Shown here piece after piece: positions 2,540 through 19,217 of a DNA stretch of 64,000 nt. The notes below the pieces were generated by a model. That model saw nothing but the letters and a program-made list of their open reading frames with translations, was not told the DNA's origin and made no database searches. Location of the stretch: the NCBI RefSeq assembly GCF_032362555.1, contig NC_083520.1, forward strand, positions 4,154,001 through 4,218,000. The letters run 5' to 3'. Within the stretch, counting starts at the first letter, position 1. Each line of letters starts with the position of its first letter. The DNA is from Amyelois transitella. Lineage: Eukaryota > Arthropoda > Insecta > Lepidoptera > Pyralidae. Position numbers and translations under genes: made by a program.

Positions 2540-5500
2540 CTAACTTAAATGTACTATTAAACTGACAAACATAATAAGGAAGCCTACTGCAGCTCTTGCT
2601 GAAGAATTGCAAAGTTCTCCTTCACACACCCTGCAGTTTTCGATCTGGGCATTAGGATTACCTATAGCTTCATTGCAACGGGTCTCAGCATTATCGTCGG
2701 CGTATGCGCAGCCACGGATCACGTCAGACTCACCATCGACTGTGAAATAATAATTTAAGTTAGTTTTACTGCAATTATAAGCTTTCCATGCTGGTGTAAT
2801 TGCAAAGAAGAAAAAAAAATACAATGTGAGCTAGCAGCTTCTATTCCCATGCAGATTGTAAAAGACAATCAATATATTTTTTTAATAAACTTGGGTTGGG
2901 TTATATTCGATAGCATAGCAACTTATCACTTTTTCCATCATTAGGCCATCCAGCTAAATGTGGCTTATTAGTCTGTTCAAGCCTGTCTACACTGTAGGGA
3001 ATAAAATATGTATTGAGACTATAAAAAACCTTTAAAGAAAAATCAAGATCTTACCTTCGAAATAAGTCACGAAACACCGTGGTTCAATTTCGTCATCCGT
3101 ATTTCTTTTCGATCTTCTATAGTTCATTATTTTATTAAATGGATTCACGTTTGGTGGTGCTGTATCAACAATATCTTCAATAGTAGAGGCTTCAGGCGTC
3201 GATGCTTCCGTAGAAGAAGCTTCTGTAGTAGAGCCATCAGTGGTAGACGCATCAGTGGATGAGCCATCGGTGGTAGGAGCATCAGTGGAAGTGCTATCAG
3301 TGATAGAAGCATCAGTGGTAAAACCATCAGTGGTAGAGCCATCTGTGGTTGAAGCATCAGTAGTAGAAGAATCAGTGGTAGGAACATTCGTTGTAGAAGC
3401 ATCAGTGGTAGAAGCATCCGTGGTAGAAGCATCAGTAGTAGGAACATCCATTGTAGAAGCATCAGTGGTAGAACCATCCGTGGTAGAAGCATCAGTGGTA
3501 GAAGCATCCGTGGTAGAAGCATCAGTGGTAGGAACATCCGTTGTAGAAGCATCAGTGGTAGGAACATCAGTGGTAGGAGCATCCGTTGTAGAAGCATCCG
3601 TTGTAGAAGCATCAGTGGTAGAAGCATCCGTGGCAAAAGCATCAGTGGTAGGAACATCCGTTGTAGAAGCATCAGTGGTAGGAGCATCCGTTGTAAAAGC
3701 ATCAGTGGTAGAAGCATCCGTAATAGAAGCATCCGTGCTAGAAGCATCAGTGGTAGAAACATCCGGTGTAGAAGCATCTGTGGTAGAAGCATCAGTGGTA
3801 GGAACAGCCGTTGTAGAAGCATCAGTGGTAGAAACATCCGGTGTAGAAGCATCTGTGGTAGAAGCATCAGTGGTAGGAACAGCCGTTGTAGAAGCATCAG
3901 TGGTAGGAGCATCAGTGGTAGGAGCATCAGTGGTAGGAGCATCAGTGGTAGGAGCATCAGTGGTAGGAGCATCAGTGGTAGAACCATCCGTGGTAGAAGC
4001 ATCAGTGGTAGAAGCATCCGTGGTAGAAGCATCAGTGGTAGGAACATCCGTTGTAGAAGCATCAGTGGTAGGAACATCAGTGGTAGAACCATCAGTGGTA
4101 GAAGCATCAGTGGTAGAACCATCAGTGGTAGAACCATCAGTGGTAGAACCATCAGTGGTAGAACCATCAGTGGTAGAACCATCAGTGGTAGAACCATCAG
4201 TGGTAGAACCATCAGTGGTAGAACCATCAGTGGTAGAACCATCAGTGGTAGAAGCATCAGTGGTAGAACCATCAGTGGTAGAACCATCAGTGGTAGAACC
4301 ATCAGTGGTAGAACCATCAGTGGTAGAAGCATCAGTGGTAGAACCATCAGTGGTAGAACCATCAGTGGTAGAACCATCAGTGGTAGAACCATCAGTGGTA
4401 GAACTATCAGTGGTAGAACCATCAGTGGTTGAACCATCAGTAGTAGAGCCATTAGTAGTAGAACCATCAGTTGTAGAACCATCATTGGTAGAGCCATCAG
4501 TTGTAGAAGCATCAGTGGTAGAACCATCAGTGGTAGAAGCATCAGTGGTAGAACCTTCAGTGGTAGAACCTTCAGTGGTAGAACCATCAGTGGTAGAACC
4601 ATCAGTGGTAGAACCATCAGTGGTAGAACCATCAGTGGTAGAACCATCAGTGGTAGAACCATCAGTGGTAGAACCATCAGTGGTAGAACCATCAGTGGTA
4701 GAACCATCAGTGGTAGAACCATCAGTGGTAGAACCATCAGTGGTAGAAGAATCAGTGGTAGAACCATCAGTGGTAGAACCATCAGTGGTAGAACCATCAG
4801 TGGTAGAACCATCAGTGGTAGAACCATCAGTGGTAGAACCATCAGTGGTAGAACCATCAGTGGTAGAACCATCAGTGGTAGAACCATCAGTGGTAGAACC
4901 ATCAGTGGTAGAACCATCAGTGGTAGAACCATCAGTGGTAGAACCATCAGTGGTAGAACCATCAGTGGTAGAACCATCAGTGGTAGAACCATCAGTGGTA
5001 GAACCATCAGTGGTAGAACCATCAGTGGTAGAACCATCAGTGGTAGAACCATCAGTGGTAGAACCATCAGTGGTAGAAGAATCAGTGGTAGAACCATCAG
5101 TGGTAGAACCATCAGTGGTAGAACCATCAGTGGTAGAACCATCAGTGGTAGAACCATCAGTGGTAGAACCATCAGTGGTAGAACCATCAGTGGTAGAACC
5201 ATCAGTGGTAGAACCATCAGTGGTAGAACCATCAGTGGTAGAACCATCAGTGGTAGAACCATCAGTGGTAGAACCATCAGTGGTAGAACCATCAGTGGTT
5301 GAACCATCAGTAGTAGAGCCATTAGTAGTAGAACCATCAGTTGTAGAACCATCATTGGTAGAGCCATCAGTTGTAGAAGCATCAGTGGTAGAACCATCAG
5401 TGGTAGAAGCATCAGTGGTAGAACCATCAGTGGTAGAACCATCAGTGGTAGAACCATCAGTGGTAGAACCTTCAGTGGTGGAACCATCAGTGGTAGAAGC

Positions 5501-16484: not shown

Positions 16485-19217
16485 ATGTTCAGTGTTAAAA
16501 TTAAGTACGTTTTCTGGACAGTTACTGTCTTAGCAGTCATCAGTAAACATAATTGTAAGTTATTTAGATGATTATATTAAATTGTCAAAAAAATGCGCAA
16601 AAAATAATTTTTTGTGCATGTTTTATACGCTTTAAGGTTAATATTGAAACTATCCCACGTCTCAATACTAATTTATTCAAACCATTTTTTACCAAACGAA
16701 TATATGTTTGTAAGTTCAAAATAACAAATTGCGATTGATTTTTTTTTCATTTTTTTTTATTTAAGTATCGTATAACTATTTTTCACAACTTATTAAAAAA
16801 ATAAAGTAGACTTCTACAATATAAAAAAACTGAATATTGTTTTTATATGTTTGAATGACCAGCAGTATTTTTTTTCAATCCTATCTTATGAATTAACAGT
16901 TTAAAAGAAAATAAACTTCTCCCACTACTCATTCAGTTAAAAAAACAATGAATACATACCATGAACAGTGTATTATAACAATAATAGAAAAAGTTAAAGA
17001 AGAGAAATATATGCCGTGGGAACCACACCATACATTTCTCTTTGTTTTGTTTGTATATAAGAGAAATATATAAGTCATAAAGATAAATTTACCGCAGGTC
17101 AAAGTACTTTCCATACTTGAAAAGTTAATTATTTTTCTGAAGTGATTTATAAAACTGCTAGGGGACACGCATCACTCCGCCCGCTTAAAATAAACAAGTC
17201 CGTTAACTCCCGTTAACTAAGGAATTTCGGGAAATACCCACTTAGTGCTCCCCTGGACTACATAAAAAACCTCCATGACCAATTTCAAATCTCTAGACTA
17301 GACCCAGCGGCATCAATTGTGCGTTTATATGTCAGTCAATCAGTTAGTCAGTGTTCCCTTTTGTACATTATTTATATTTAGATATGAATATTTTGTTATT
17401 ACATCTCTTTTTAGAGTTGCATAGCCATAGGTAAAAATATCTTTTATTCATATCATAGATTTTAGTAAAAACTTAAAATGGAAGTTTTTTGATAAATTAG
17501 TAGTAATTAGTACGTGAATTTTACGCAGTGGAAGCAAGATTACTAGTGGCTAATAGATCGGCAATGAAGTCTTATTTTAACTAAAACTCATATCAGTGTG
17601 TAACAAAACGGGAGTCAGTGACACAACTATACACGACAGATTTGCTATGAAAAATTACTTAAAAGTTATGATTAGGGCATAAAGAAATATGTACAGATAA
17701 ATTACAAAGGTAGTGCTGGACTCAAAATTATTTTAAAATTTTTGTAATGAGGTACTAAATAAACGATACTAACTATATTTGATACATATTATTATTTTTT
17801 CACCATGATGCGAGACCATGTGTTTCCAAGTCAGAAACCCTACCGCTACCTACATGGCCCCACCGAAGAATATTGAACAATCCAGCAACATTTATCTTGA
17901 CGACATTTTAATTACAATTGAGATCAATTCGAACAAATAAATTTCAAATTCAATTATCATTCTTTGCAGCCGACGCGGTAAGATGTTACGTTTGTCGTGG
18001 ATGTCAAAGCGGAGACTTAACAGAAGATCATGCTCGAACTTGTCCACCACGTACCCCGCCTACAGTCCCCCCGACTGAGGAACCCACAACTACAGATGAA
18101 CCCATAACAGATTCTCCATCAACTGAAGGGCCTGTCACTGAGGAAGTTACTACTGAAGCATCTACTACGGATTCTTCTACCACTAATGGTTCTACTACTG
18201 ATAGTTCTACCACTGATGGTTCTACCACTGATGGTTCTACCACTGATGGTTCCACCACTGATGGTTCTACCACTGATGGTTCTACCACTGATGGTTCTAC
18301 CACTGATGGTTCTACCACTGATGGTTCCACCACTGATGGTTCTACCACTGATGGTTCTACCACTGATGGTTCTACCACTGATGGTTCTACCACTGATGGT
18401 TCTACCACTGATGGTTATACCACTGATAGTTCTACTACTGATGCTTCCACCATTGATGGTTCTACCACTGAAGAATCTACTACTGAAACATCTACTACTG
18501 AAACATCTACCACTGAAGTATCTACGAGTGACGCCTCTACTATTGAAAATTCTGTTAATCCAGGACCATCTAATGTGAATCCATTTTACGAAGTAATAAA
18601 CTATAGAAGATCAAAAAGAAATGCGGGTGATGAAATTGAACCGCGCTGTTTTGTAACGTATTTTGAAGGTAAGATGTCTTGATTTTTCTTGAAAGTATTC
18701 TTAATGTTTATCATTGGAAAGGTGATAATACTTATACATACATACATCACGTCTTTATTCCTTACTACAGTCTTGAAAAGACTGAAAGCCTGAAAGCCAC
18801 AAGAAATTTAGCTAGATGCCTAAATGGTGGAATTGAGATTCAAATAGTATGCTAAACAACTAAGGGACTAAAACAGGATGCTAAAACACAGCAGAAAATA
18901 AAAATCCCAATCCCAAATTCGTTAAAAAAATTCTTGACTGACTTTCATGAACACCAGACACACAAGCATGAAAAGCTAATAATTGCAGTAAAATTAACTA
19001 ACATTATTATTTCACAGTCAATGGTGAGTCTGACGTGATCCGTGGCTGCGCATACGCCGACGATAATGCTGAGACCCGTTGCAATGAAGCTATAGGTAAT
19101 CCTAATGCCCAGATCGAAAACTGCAGGGTGTGTGAAGGAGAACTTTGCAATTCTTCAGCAAGAGCTGCAGTAGGCTTCCTTATTATGTTTGTCAGTTTAA
19201 TAGTACATTTAAGTTAA
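16485..19217 (+). CDS. Short mucin-insert LU protein (Ly6/uPAR domain split by a ~201-residue Thr/Ser/Asp repeat)
   Basis: Exons 16485-16554, 17970-18668 and 19018-19217 (70+699+200 nt) encode 322 residues with phase-1 introns. The leader is [20 protein letters not shown]. Cysteines 1-4 are at 29, 32, 35 and 48 ([13 protein letters not shown]). Residues 49-249 are the insert: a [13 protein letters not shown] start, about 25 repeat units dominated by TTDGS, a TEE/TET-rich end, and then [18 protein letters not shown] with cysteine 5 at 250. Exon 3 supplies RGC, TRC, ENC, RVC, LCNSS and a hydrophobic tail ([14 protein letters not shown]) for GPI attachment. Every LU cysteine is kept despite the insert. 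I infer a mucin-like surface protein; no orthologue name is known to me. Confidence 0.88.
18150..18545 (+). repeat. 15-bp coding minisatellite (TTDGS) in exon 2
   Basis: About 25 units of ACCACTGATGGTTCT, nearly homogeneous between 18195 and 18415, with degenerate ACTGAAACATCTACT-type units after that. It is the homologue of the array at 3180-5965 and about seven times shorter. Confidence 0.95.
18735..18885 (+). repeat. Family-1 SINE fragment inside intron 2 of the short mucin-LU gene
   Basis: TACATACATACATCACGTCT, CAGTCTTGAAAAGACTGAAAG and GGAATTGAGATTCAAATAGT are in order, with several internal deletions. It occupies the same intron as the fragment at 2918-3015. Confidence 0.7.

Follow-up and report, generated by a model that had tools for sequence, protein, structure and literature searches.

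The window analysed here, a stretch of 64,000 nucleotides from the pyralid moth Amyelois transitella (NCBI RefSeq assembly GCF_032362555.1, contig NC_083520.1, positions 4,154,001 to 4,218,000 of the forward strand), contains a pair of mirrored genes encoding a three-finger (LU) domain that is split by a long Thr/Ser/Asp repeat, with a putative proprotein convertase motif behind the repeat. All coordinates below are counted from the first letter of the window. The left gene (L, 7334-2540, minus strand) and the right gene (R, 16485-19217, plus strand) are inverted paralogues whose start codons lie about 9.2 kb apart. With their exons joined they encode 1117 and 322 amino acids, respectively, and both products have a signal-peptide-like N terminus and a hydrophobic C-terminal end. 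The two genes are composed as follows.

7265..7334, minus strand: L exon 1, with the start codon, the signal-peptide-like N terminus and the donor GTAAGT, phase 1
3055..6138, minus strand: L exon 2 (3084 nt), with LU cysteines 1-4, a Pro/Thr flank, the repeat, the convertase motif and cysteine 5
3188..5947, minus strand: L repeat array, 184 units of 15 bp with the consensus STTDG, residues 88-1007 (3228-5933 according to Tandem Repeats Finder, TRF)
3104..3115, minus strand: furin-type motif RSKR within NYRRSKRN in L, residues 1032-1035, separated from cysteine 5 by nine residues
2540..2739, minus strand: L exon 3, with LU cysteines 6-10, the CN motif, the hydrophobic tail and the stop codon TAG
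16485..16554, plus strand: R exon 1
17970..18668, plus strand: R exon 2 (699 nt), with LU cysteines 1-4, the repeat, the convertase motif and cysteine 5
18161..18535, plus strand: R repeat array, 25 units, residues 88-212 (TRF: 18175-18486 and 18461-18548)
18608..18619, plus strand: RSKR within NYRRSKRN in R, residues 237-240, separated from cysteine 5 by nine residues
19018..19217, plus strand: R exon 3, with LU cysteines 6-10, the CN motif, the hydrophobic tail and the stop codon TAA

A split LU domain in both genes

A preliminary description of this DNA had reported ten intact LU cysteines in both genes, and the exon-joined models bear this out: they fall at residues 29, 32, 35, 48 / 1045, 1062, 1073, 1087, 1090 and 1095 in L, and at 29, 32, 35, 48 / 250, 267, 278, 292, 295 and 300 in R. 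The spacing from cysteine 4 (C4, residue 48 in both) to cysteine 5 (C5) is thus 996 residues in L and 201 in R, as had been stated, and the 11 residues given for a related gene near position 23500 (gene G) were likewise reproduced. Introns 1 and 2 are in phase 1 in L, R and G, and in both paralogues the repeat lies in frame within exon 2, again as described before. The layout of an LU domain split by a repeat is therefore confirmed in two mirrored genes.

Membership in the LU family is indicated by the ten cysteines with an Asn directly after the tenth (CN), and by a gene structure of three exons with phase-1 introns, the second of which falls in loop 2; this is the exon layout of LU genes (PMC6600238). 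The window holds three further LU genes, H, I and J (see below), and exon boundaries are shared by most of these genes. In G the first cysteine follows the split codon of intron 1 by 42 residues, in the other five (L, R, H, I and J) by five. The split codon of intron 2, between C5 and C6, stands at C5+7 in all but G (+9) and J (+13). An LU domain normally measures 60-90 residues with a short C4-C5 linker. Because the linker here is 996 or 201 residues long, we class L and R as a variant and not as standard LU domains, although the span from C1 to C10 comes to 71 residues in both proteins once the C4-C5 segment is subtracted.

The similarity searches are in keeping with this assignment mainly for the C-terminal half. 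This half of R matched the Pfam family QVR (PF17064) with 25.5 bits (E 2.7e-5, model positions 34-86 of 86), which is below the Pfam gathering cut-off of 27.3, and the whole R protein reached 19.4; the N-terminal half alone matched no Pfam family. In two-sequence comparisons with gene G, the C-terminal half of R gave an E value of 3e-6, and the N-terminal half matched only over the nine residues VxCYxCxGC (6/9 identical, E 0.003). No relatives were found for either half among viral contigs or for the C-terminal half among genome contigs, which means little since these collections consist of viral and prokaryote DNA. A search of the PDB with gene G as the query returned a single match, at E 1.1, which is not an LU protein, and Rfam gave zero matches at gathering scores.

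The repeat lies in the frame of the domain

The arrays consist of five-residue units, 184 in L and 25 in R, without a single indel in either, and the commonest unit in both is TCTACCACTGATGGT (STTDG; Ser-Thr-Thr-Asp-Gly). TRF recovers the same arrays. An open reading frame proves nothing in such a sequence, because other frames are also open across the 15-bp repeat, including antisense ones (983 and 937 amino acids), and we have discarded it as evidence of coding. What supports the coding frame are the shared splice sites, the selected unique flanks and the codons of the Thr pair, which vary mostly at the third base. Across 52 distinct unit types, the Thr-Thr codons show 40.5 synonymous against 13.5 nonsynonymous differences where 1:2 would be expected; the corresponding p of about 1e-9 is overstated, since units copy one another and the unit types are not independent.

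Between L and R, the Pro/Thr flank has diverged by 0.012 at nonsynonymous sites (dN) and by 0.134 at synonymous sites (dS). The corresponding values are 0.084 and 0.777 for the C-flank, on the C-terminal side of the repeat, and 0.073 and 0.198 for the part from C1 to C4. Selection thus seems to act on the unique sequence to either side of the repeat as well as on its Thr codons. Exon 1 (residues 1-23), with five amino-acid-changing and zero silent differences, gives no sign of constraint. The distinct codon variants of the units likewise lack a silent excess, with 10 silent and 25 changing variants in L (expected 13:32) and 5 and 12 in R; an overall excess is missing because residue 5 of the unit (Gly, Ala, Val or Ser) and residue 1 (Ser or Pro) vary freely. 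Judged from these patterns, selection within the repeat is visible on the Thr pair and not on every residue.

These figures invite the alternative that the repeat expanded by slippage in a tolerant linker and is itself of little function. The L array contains 17 consecutive units that are identical at a lag of 16 units, 86 of its 184 units are identical, the arrays of the two paralogues differ five-fold in length, and the absent silent excess points the same way. Set against this are the retained Thr pair, a frame unbroken by indels, and the low dN of the Pro/Thr flank relative to its dS, and we therefore consider a repeat of little function unlikely.

Another possibility is that the repeat is spliced out of some or all transcripts, or that the two halves of the domain belong to different transcripts. 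We scored splice sites with generic matrices, pairing donors of at least 0 before the repeat with acceptors of at least 2 in its second half or beyond; on this scale the true sites reach 5.9 and 10.5 (donors) and 5.4-8.9 (acceptors). All eight in-frame pairs in L use a donor at position 39 of exon 2 (3.2) and would delete C4, and both in-frame pairs in R use a donor at position 81 (1.1). One of the latter, from 81 to an acceptor at 595 (6.6), would excise the whole repeat while sparing C4 and RRSKR. However, its donor falls far short of the true ones and scores -1.0 at the same position in L, whereas the position-39 donor is absent in R, and as each is usable in one gene only, there is no excision common to both. 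A strong donor-like sequence, GCG/GTAAGA (9.0), is present in both genes 8 nt from the start of exon 2 (6138-6123, minus strand; 17970-17985, plus strand), but none of the scored acceptors is in frame with it in either gene. By these scores excision in R is unlikely, and splicing as a general explanation of the split domain appears very unlikely.

Composition of the insert

Ser and Thr make up 546 of the 996 residues between C4 and C5 in L and 96 of the 201 in R, and acidic residues 192 and 39, respectively, as against 9 and 6 basic ones. Proline is scarce (34/996 and 14/201). The segments are thus mucin-like in being dominated by Ser/Thr-rich tandem repeats (184 and 25 units), but neither is proline-rich in the manner of the proline, threonine and serine (PTS) domains of mucins. 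On composition, O-glycosylation of the repeat is likely, although the low proline content and the acidic Asp beside Thr may make it partial. Attachment of glycosaminoglycans was considered and rejected, as there are zero Ser-Gly dipeptides in either segment. A stretch of 24 residues at the end of both proteins reads as hydrophobic by eye and suggests a glycosylphosphatidylinositol (GPI) anchor.

Because O-glycosylation may be partial, there is a rival to the mucin brush, namely that the repeat is a disordered, acidic arm that captures a basic partner. The excess of acidic over basic residues would suit such an arm, as would the missing Ser-Gly dipeptides, and the acidic extension of GPIHBP1 provides a precedent (PMC6600238, PMC8319833). 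Yet in GPIHBP1 the arm is a short N-terminal segment with an exon to itself, and its acidic residues are packed far more densely (21 within 26); in L and R, about half of each insert is Ser or Thr. An arm of this kind is in our opinion an improbable account of the repeat.

The insert would lie in the palm

The position of the insert can be read from C4.4A, whose second LU domain (DII) has the disulfides 110-142, 113-121, 131-163, 169-185 and 186-191 in the crystal structure (PMC7053344). From these pairs C4 corresponds to Cys131 and C5 to Cys142, the LU disulfides being 1-5, 2-3, 4-6, 7-8 and 9-10 (PMC6600238). Strand B of DII covers residues 128-130, strand C starts at residue 141, and the segment between them is the linker Lk1 in the disulfide-rich palm, with 9 residues in DII, a length remarked upon as long in comparison with the 6 of domain I (PMC7053344). 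C4-C5 is hence Lk1, and the claim in the preliminary description that the repeat sits in a three-finger loop has to be corrected on the strength of this structure. An insert at this place would leave the domain at its base, so that by analogy the fingers and hairpins should stay undisturbed. Lk1 also looks like a tolerant place for an insertion, since it already measures 11-17 residues in the four LU genes of the window that have no insert.

A single-sequence AlphaFold model of R exon 2 contains one six-residue helix and zero strands, with 0 of 232 residues at a pLDDT of at least 70 and a mean pLDDT of 44.7; as its input had neither an alignment nor exon 3, this low confidence is weak evidence of disorder. 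A folded solenoid is disfavoured by the lack of strands in the model, with the same reservation, and by a consensus unit without any hydrophobic residue.

A conserved convertase motif and a proposed two-chain protein

Between the repeat and C5 both proteins carry the sequence NYRRSKRN. Its RSKR, which occurs once per protein, conforms to the RX[KR]R pattern of proprotein convertase substrates, and we take RRSKR to be a furin-type motif from the pattern RXKR. The eight residues are identical in L and R, and their codons together with those of a 13-codon conserved stretch differ at 8 silent and 0 changing positions, while the residues around these stretches do differ (FNKIM/FYEVI, TD/AG). When the flank is shuffled, the pattern RX[KR]R arises in 3.8% of trials for L and in 2.7% for R, two genes that are not independent of each other. 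The motif stands in a Ser/Thr-poor stretch of 15 residues and is probably exposed.

Provided that both genes are expressed, we infer the following course of events. The Lk1 of a GPI-anchored LU protein would hold a long disordered Thr/Ser/Asp repeat, and folding in the endoplasmic reticulum would come first, with the disulfides 1-5, 2-3, 4-6, 7-8 and 9-10 closing the LU head across it. A proprotein convertase would then cleave after RRSKR, leaving nine residues before C5. Chain A would hold C1-C4 and end in the repeat, now a free tail at its C terminus; chain B would carry C5-C10 and the C-terminal tail or GPI anchor. With the standard disulfides formed before the cut, 1-5 and 4-6 would hold the two chains together. 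A long, acidic and probably O-glycosylated brush would thus leave the palm, the fingers would stay free for a partner, and the brush might act as a barrier, a spacer or a capture device on an epithelial or secreted surface. That L and R are two-chain, disulfide-held and GPI-anchored LU proteins of this kind, with the repeat as a free tail, we hold to be slightly more probable than the contrary. The wider proposal, in which a three-finger domain is cut inside its own fold, in Lk1, and persists as two disulfide-joined chains with a mucin-like free tail whose length varies between paralogues, we put forward tentatively, as somewhat short of an even chance.

Several points weigh against this reading. 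Besides the sub-threshold QVR score, the unmatched N-terminal half, the unconstrained exon 1, the codon variants without a silent excess, the possibly partial glycosylation, the in-frame splice pair of R and the limits of the AlphaFold model, there is the brevity of the furin motif, which marks a predicted site. Gene conversion, likely for exon 3, could account for part of the conservation between L and R, and the support comes from the genes of two paralogues in one window.

An uncut repeat would be a giant closed loop projecting from the GPI-anchored LU head, as the preliminary description, overlooking the RRSKR of both genes, had envisaged. The same gene models fit this form, not all RXKR sites are cleaved, and neighbouring glycans can hinder convertases. 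However, RRSKR is unchanged in both paralogues despite a dS of 0.78 in the C-flank, and it lies in a stretch that is poor in Ser and Thr and probably exposed. The closed loop is thus doubtful as the final form of the protein, and we rate it as rather unlikely.

Should the two-chain reading be correct, reduction of two disulfides would free the mucin chain from the membrane. Lk1 would then be a site that accepts large additions, an insert of 200 or 1000 residues, perhaps even cut, without breaking the fold, and L and R would show how nature can fix a mucin brush to a small head with a lipid anchor. With paralogues that differ roughly five-fold in length, a single species allows the influence of brush length to be tested.

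History of the pair

The unique flanks of the repeat align without indels between L and R on both sides, which makes it most likely that the insert is older than the inverted duplication. From the exact match of 17 consecutive units at a lag of 16, the L array appears to have grown by block duplication after that event.

The two copies of exon 3 (2540-2739, minus strand, and 19018-19217, plus strand) are identical at 198 of 200 positions, compared with 76% identity in intron 2 and 82% in the C-flank of exon 2, and silent changes amount to 0 at 45 sites in exon 3 versus 10 at about 21 in the C-flank (p 1.7e-6). On these grounds the inverted copies have likely undergone recent gene conversion in exon 3, and what is conserved between L and R therefore counts for less than conservation across species would.

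As assemblies easily go wrong at repeat arrays and inverted copies, an artefact of this kind has to be considered, as have pseudogenes. Both copies are intact, however, intron 2 differs at 24% of the aligned positions, and exon 2 is under purifying selection in both, and we regard this explanation as extremely improbable. The inverted duplication extends past the genes (1100-7777 versus 16019-20390, in patches of 73-96% identity), and the spacer of about 8.2 kb between its arms matches only over a short interspersed element.

Other features of the window

By its gene content the window is a cluster of LU genes. For H, I and J both LU exons were found, and exon 1 was identified for J only.

~216-406, plus strand: LU exon 3 alone at the left window edge, other exons not with it
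23500-23557, 23934-24176 and 24929-25149, plus strand: exons of gene G, the related LU gene without insert, C4-C5 of 11 residues
45074-47425, plus strand: gene H, C4-C5 of 17 residues, QVR 45.5 bits
50824-50044, minus strand: gene I, C4-C5 of 16 residues, QVR 61.8 bits
52445-53310, plus strand: gene J, C4-C5 of 11 residues, QVR 46.6 bits, one cysteine beyond ten

Repeated sequences include a tandem unit of 320 bp at 47709-48331 (about 2 copies, 99% matching) and, by eye, a direct repeat of about 255 bp at ~9956-10212 and ~11415-11672. An interspersed element with the sequence GGCGACTAAGGGATAGGCTT, also found by eye and apparently present in both orientations (~13800, 21250-21470, 26045-26310, 27785-28040 and 28680-28880), looks like a short interspersed repeat. 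A 197-amino-acid open frame at 12793-13386 on the minus strand may represent the end of a non-LTR retrotransposon polyprotein, which it resembles.

Relation to known systems

Among the relatives in the window, the Quiver/Sleepless-type proteins (PF17064) encoded by H, I and J share with L and R the phase-1 introns, the two LU exons, the hydrophobic tail, the ten cysteines (one extra in J) and the offset of the first cysteine. Unlike L and R, they have 17, 16 and 11 residues between C4 and C5 and no repeat.

Furin can yield two-chain proteins that are held together by disulfides, and as in this class, L and R have a probably exposed RXKR between cysteines that are expected to pair across the cut. 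Among LU proteins we know of none with a cut within the domain. In the open-licence literature, as far as its text was available, the matches listed included neither an LU domain whose Lk1 carries a large insertion nor one that a convertase cuts internally, so that the earlier view of an architecture without known precedent stands within that scope. Similar predicted insect proteins may well be sitting unremarked in databases. The Drosophila fungal-spore mucins were considered for comparison and set aside, as no tie to LU was seen in the available part of PMC13373891.

Human GPIHBP1 and SP-10 resemble L and R in combining a single LU head with a disordered region, which in GPIHBP1 is acidic (PMC6600238, PMC8319833). 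In these proteins, however, the disordered part is N-terminal to the LU domain and has its own exon, whereas the repeat of L and R lies in exon 2, after C4, and the available text of the two papers describes no convertase motif inside their LU domain.

Human C4.4A (LYPD3) is a GPI-anchored LU protein, as L and R probably are, and has a mucin-type region, in its case rich in Ser, Thr and Pro; it is heavily glycosylated, with 15 putative O-linked sites (PMC7053344). There, the mucin-type region follows two intact LU domains whose Lk1 measures 6 or 9 residues, whereas in L and R the repeat is located inside the LU domain itself, in Lk1.

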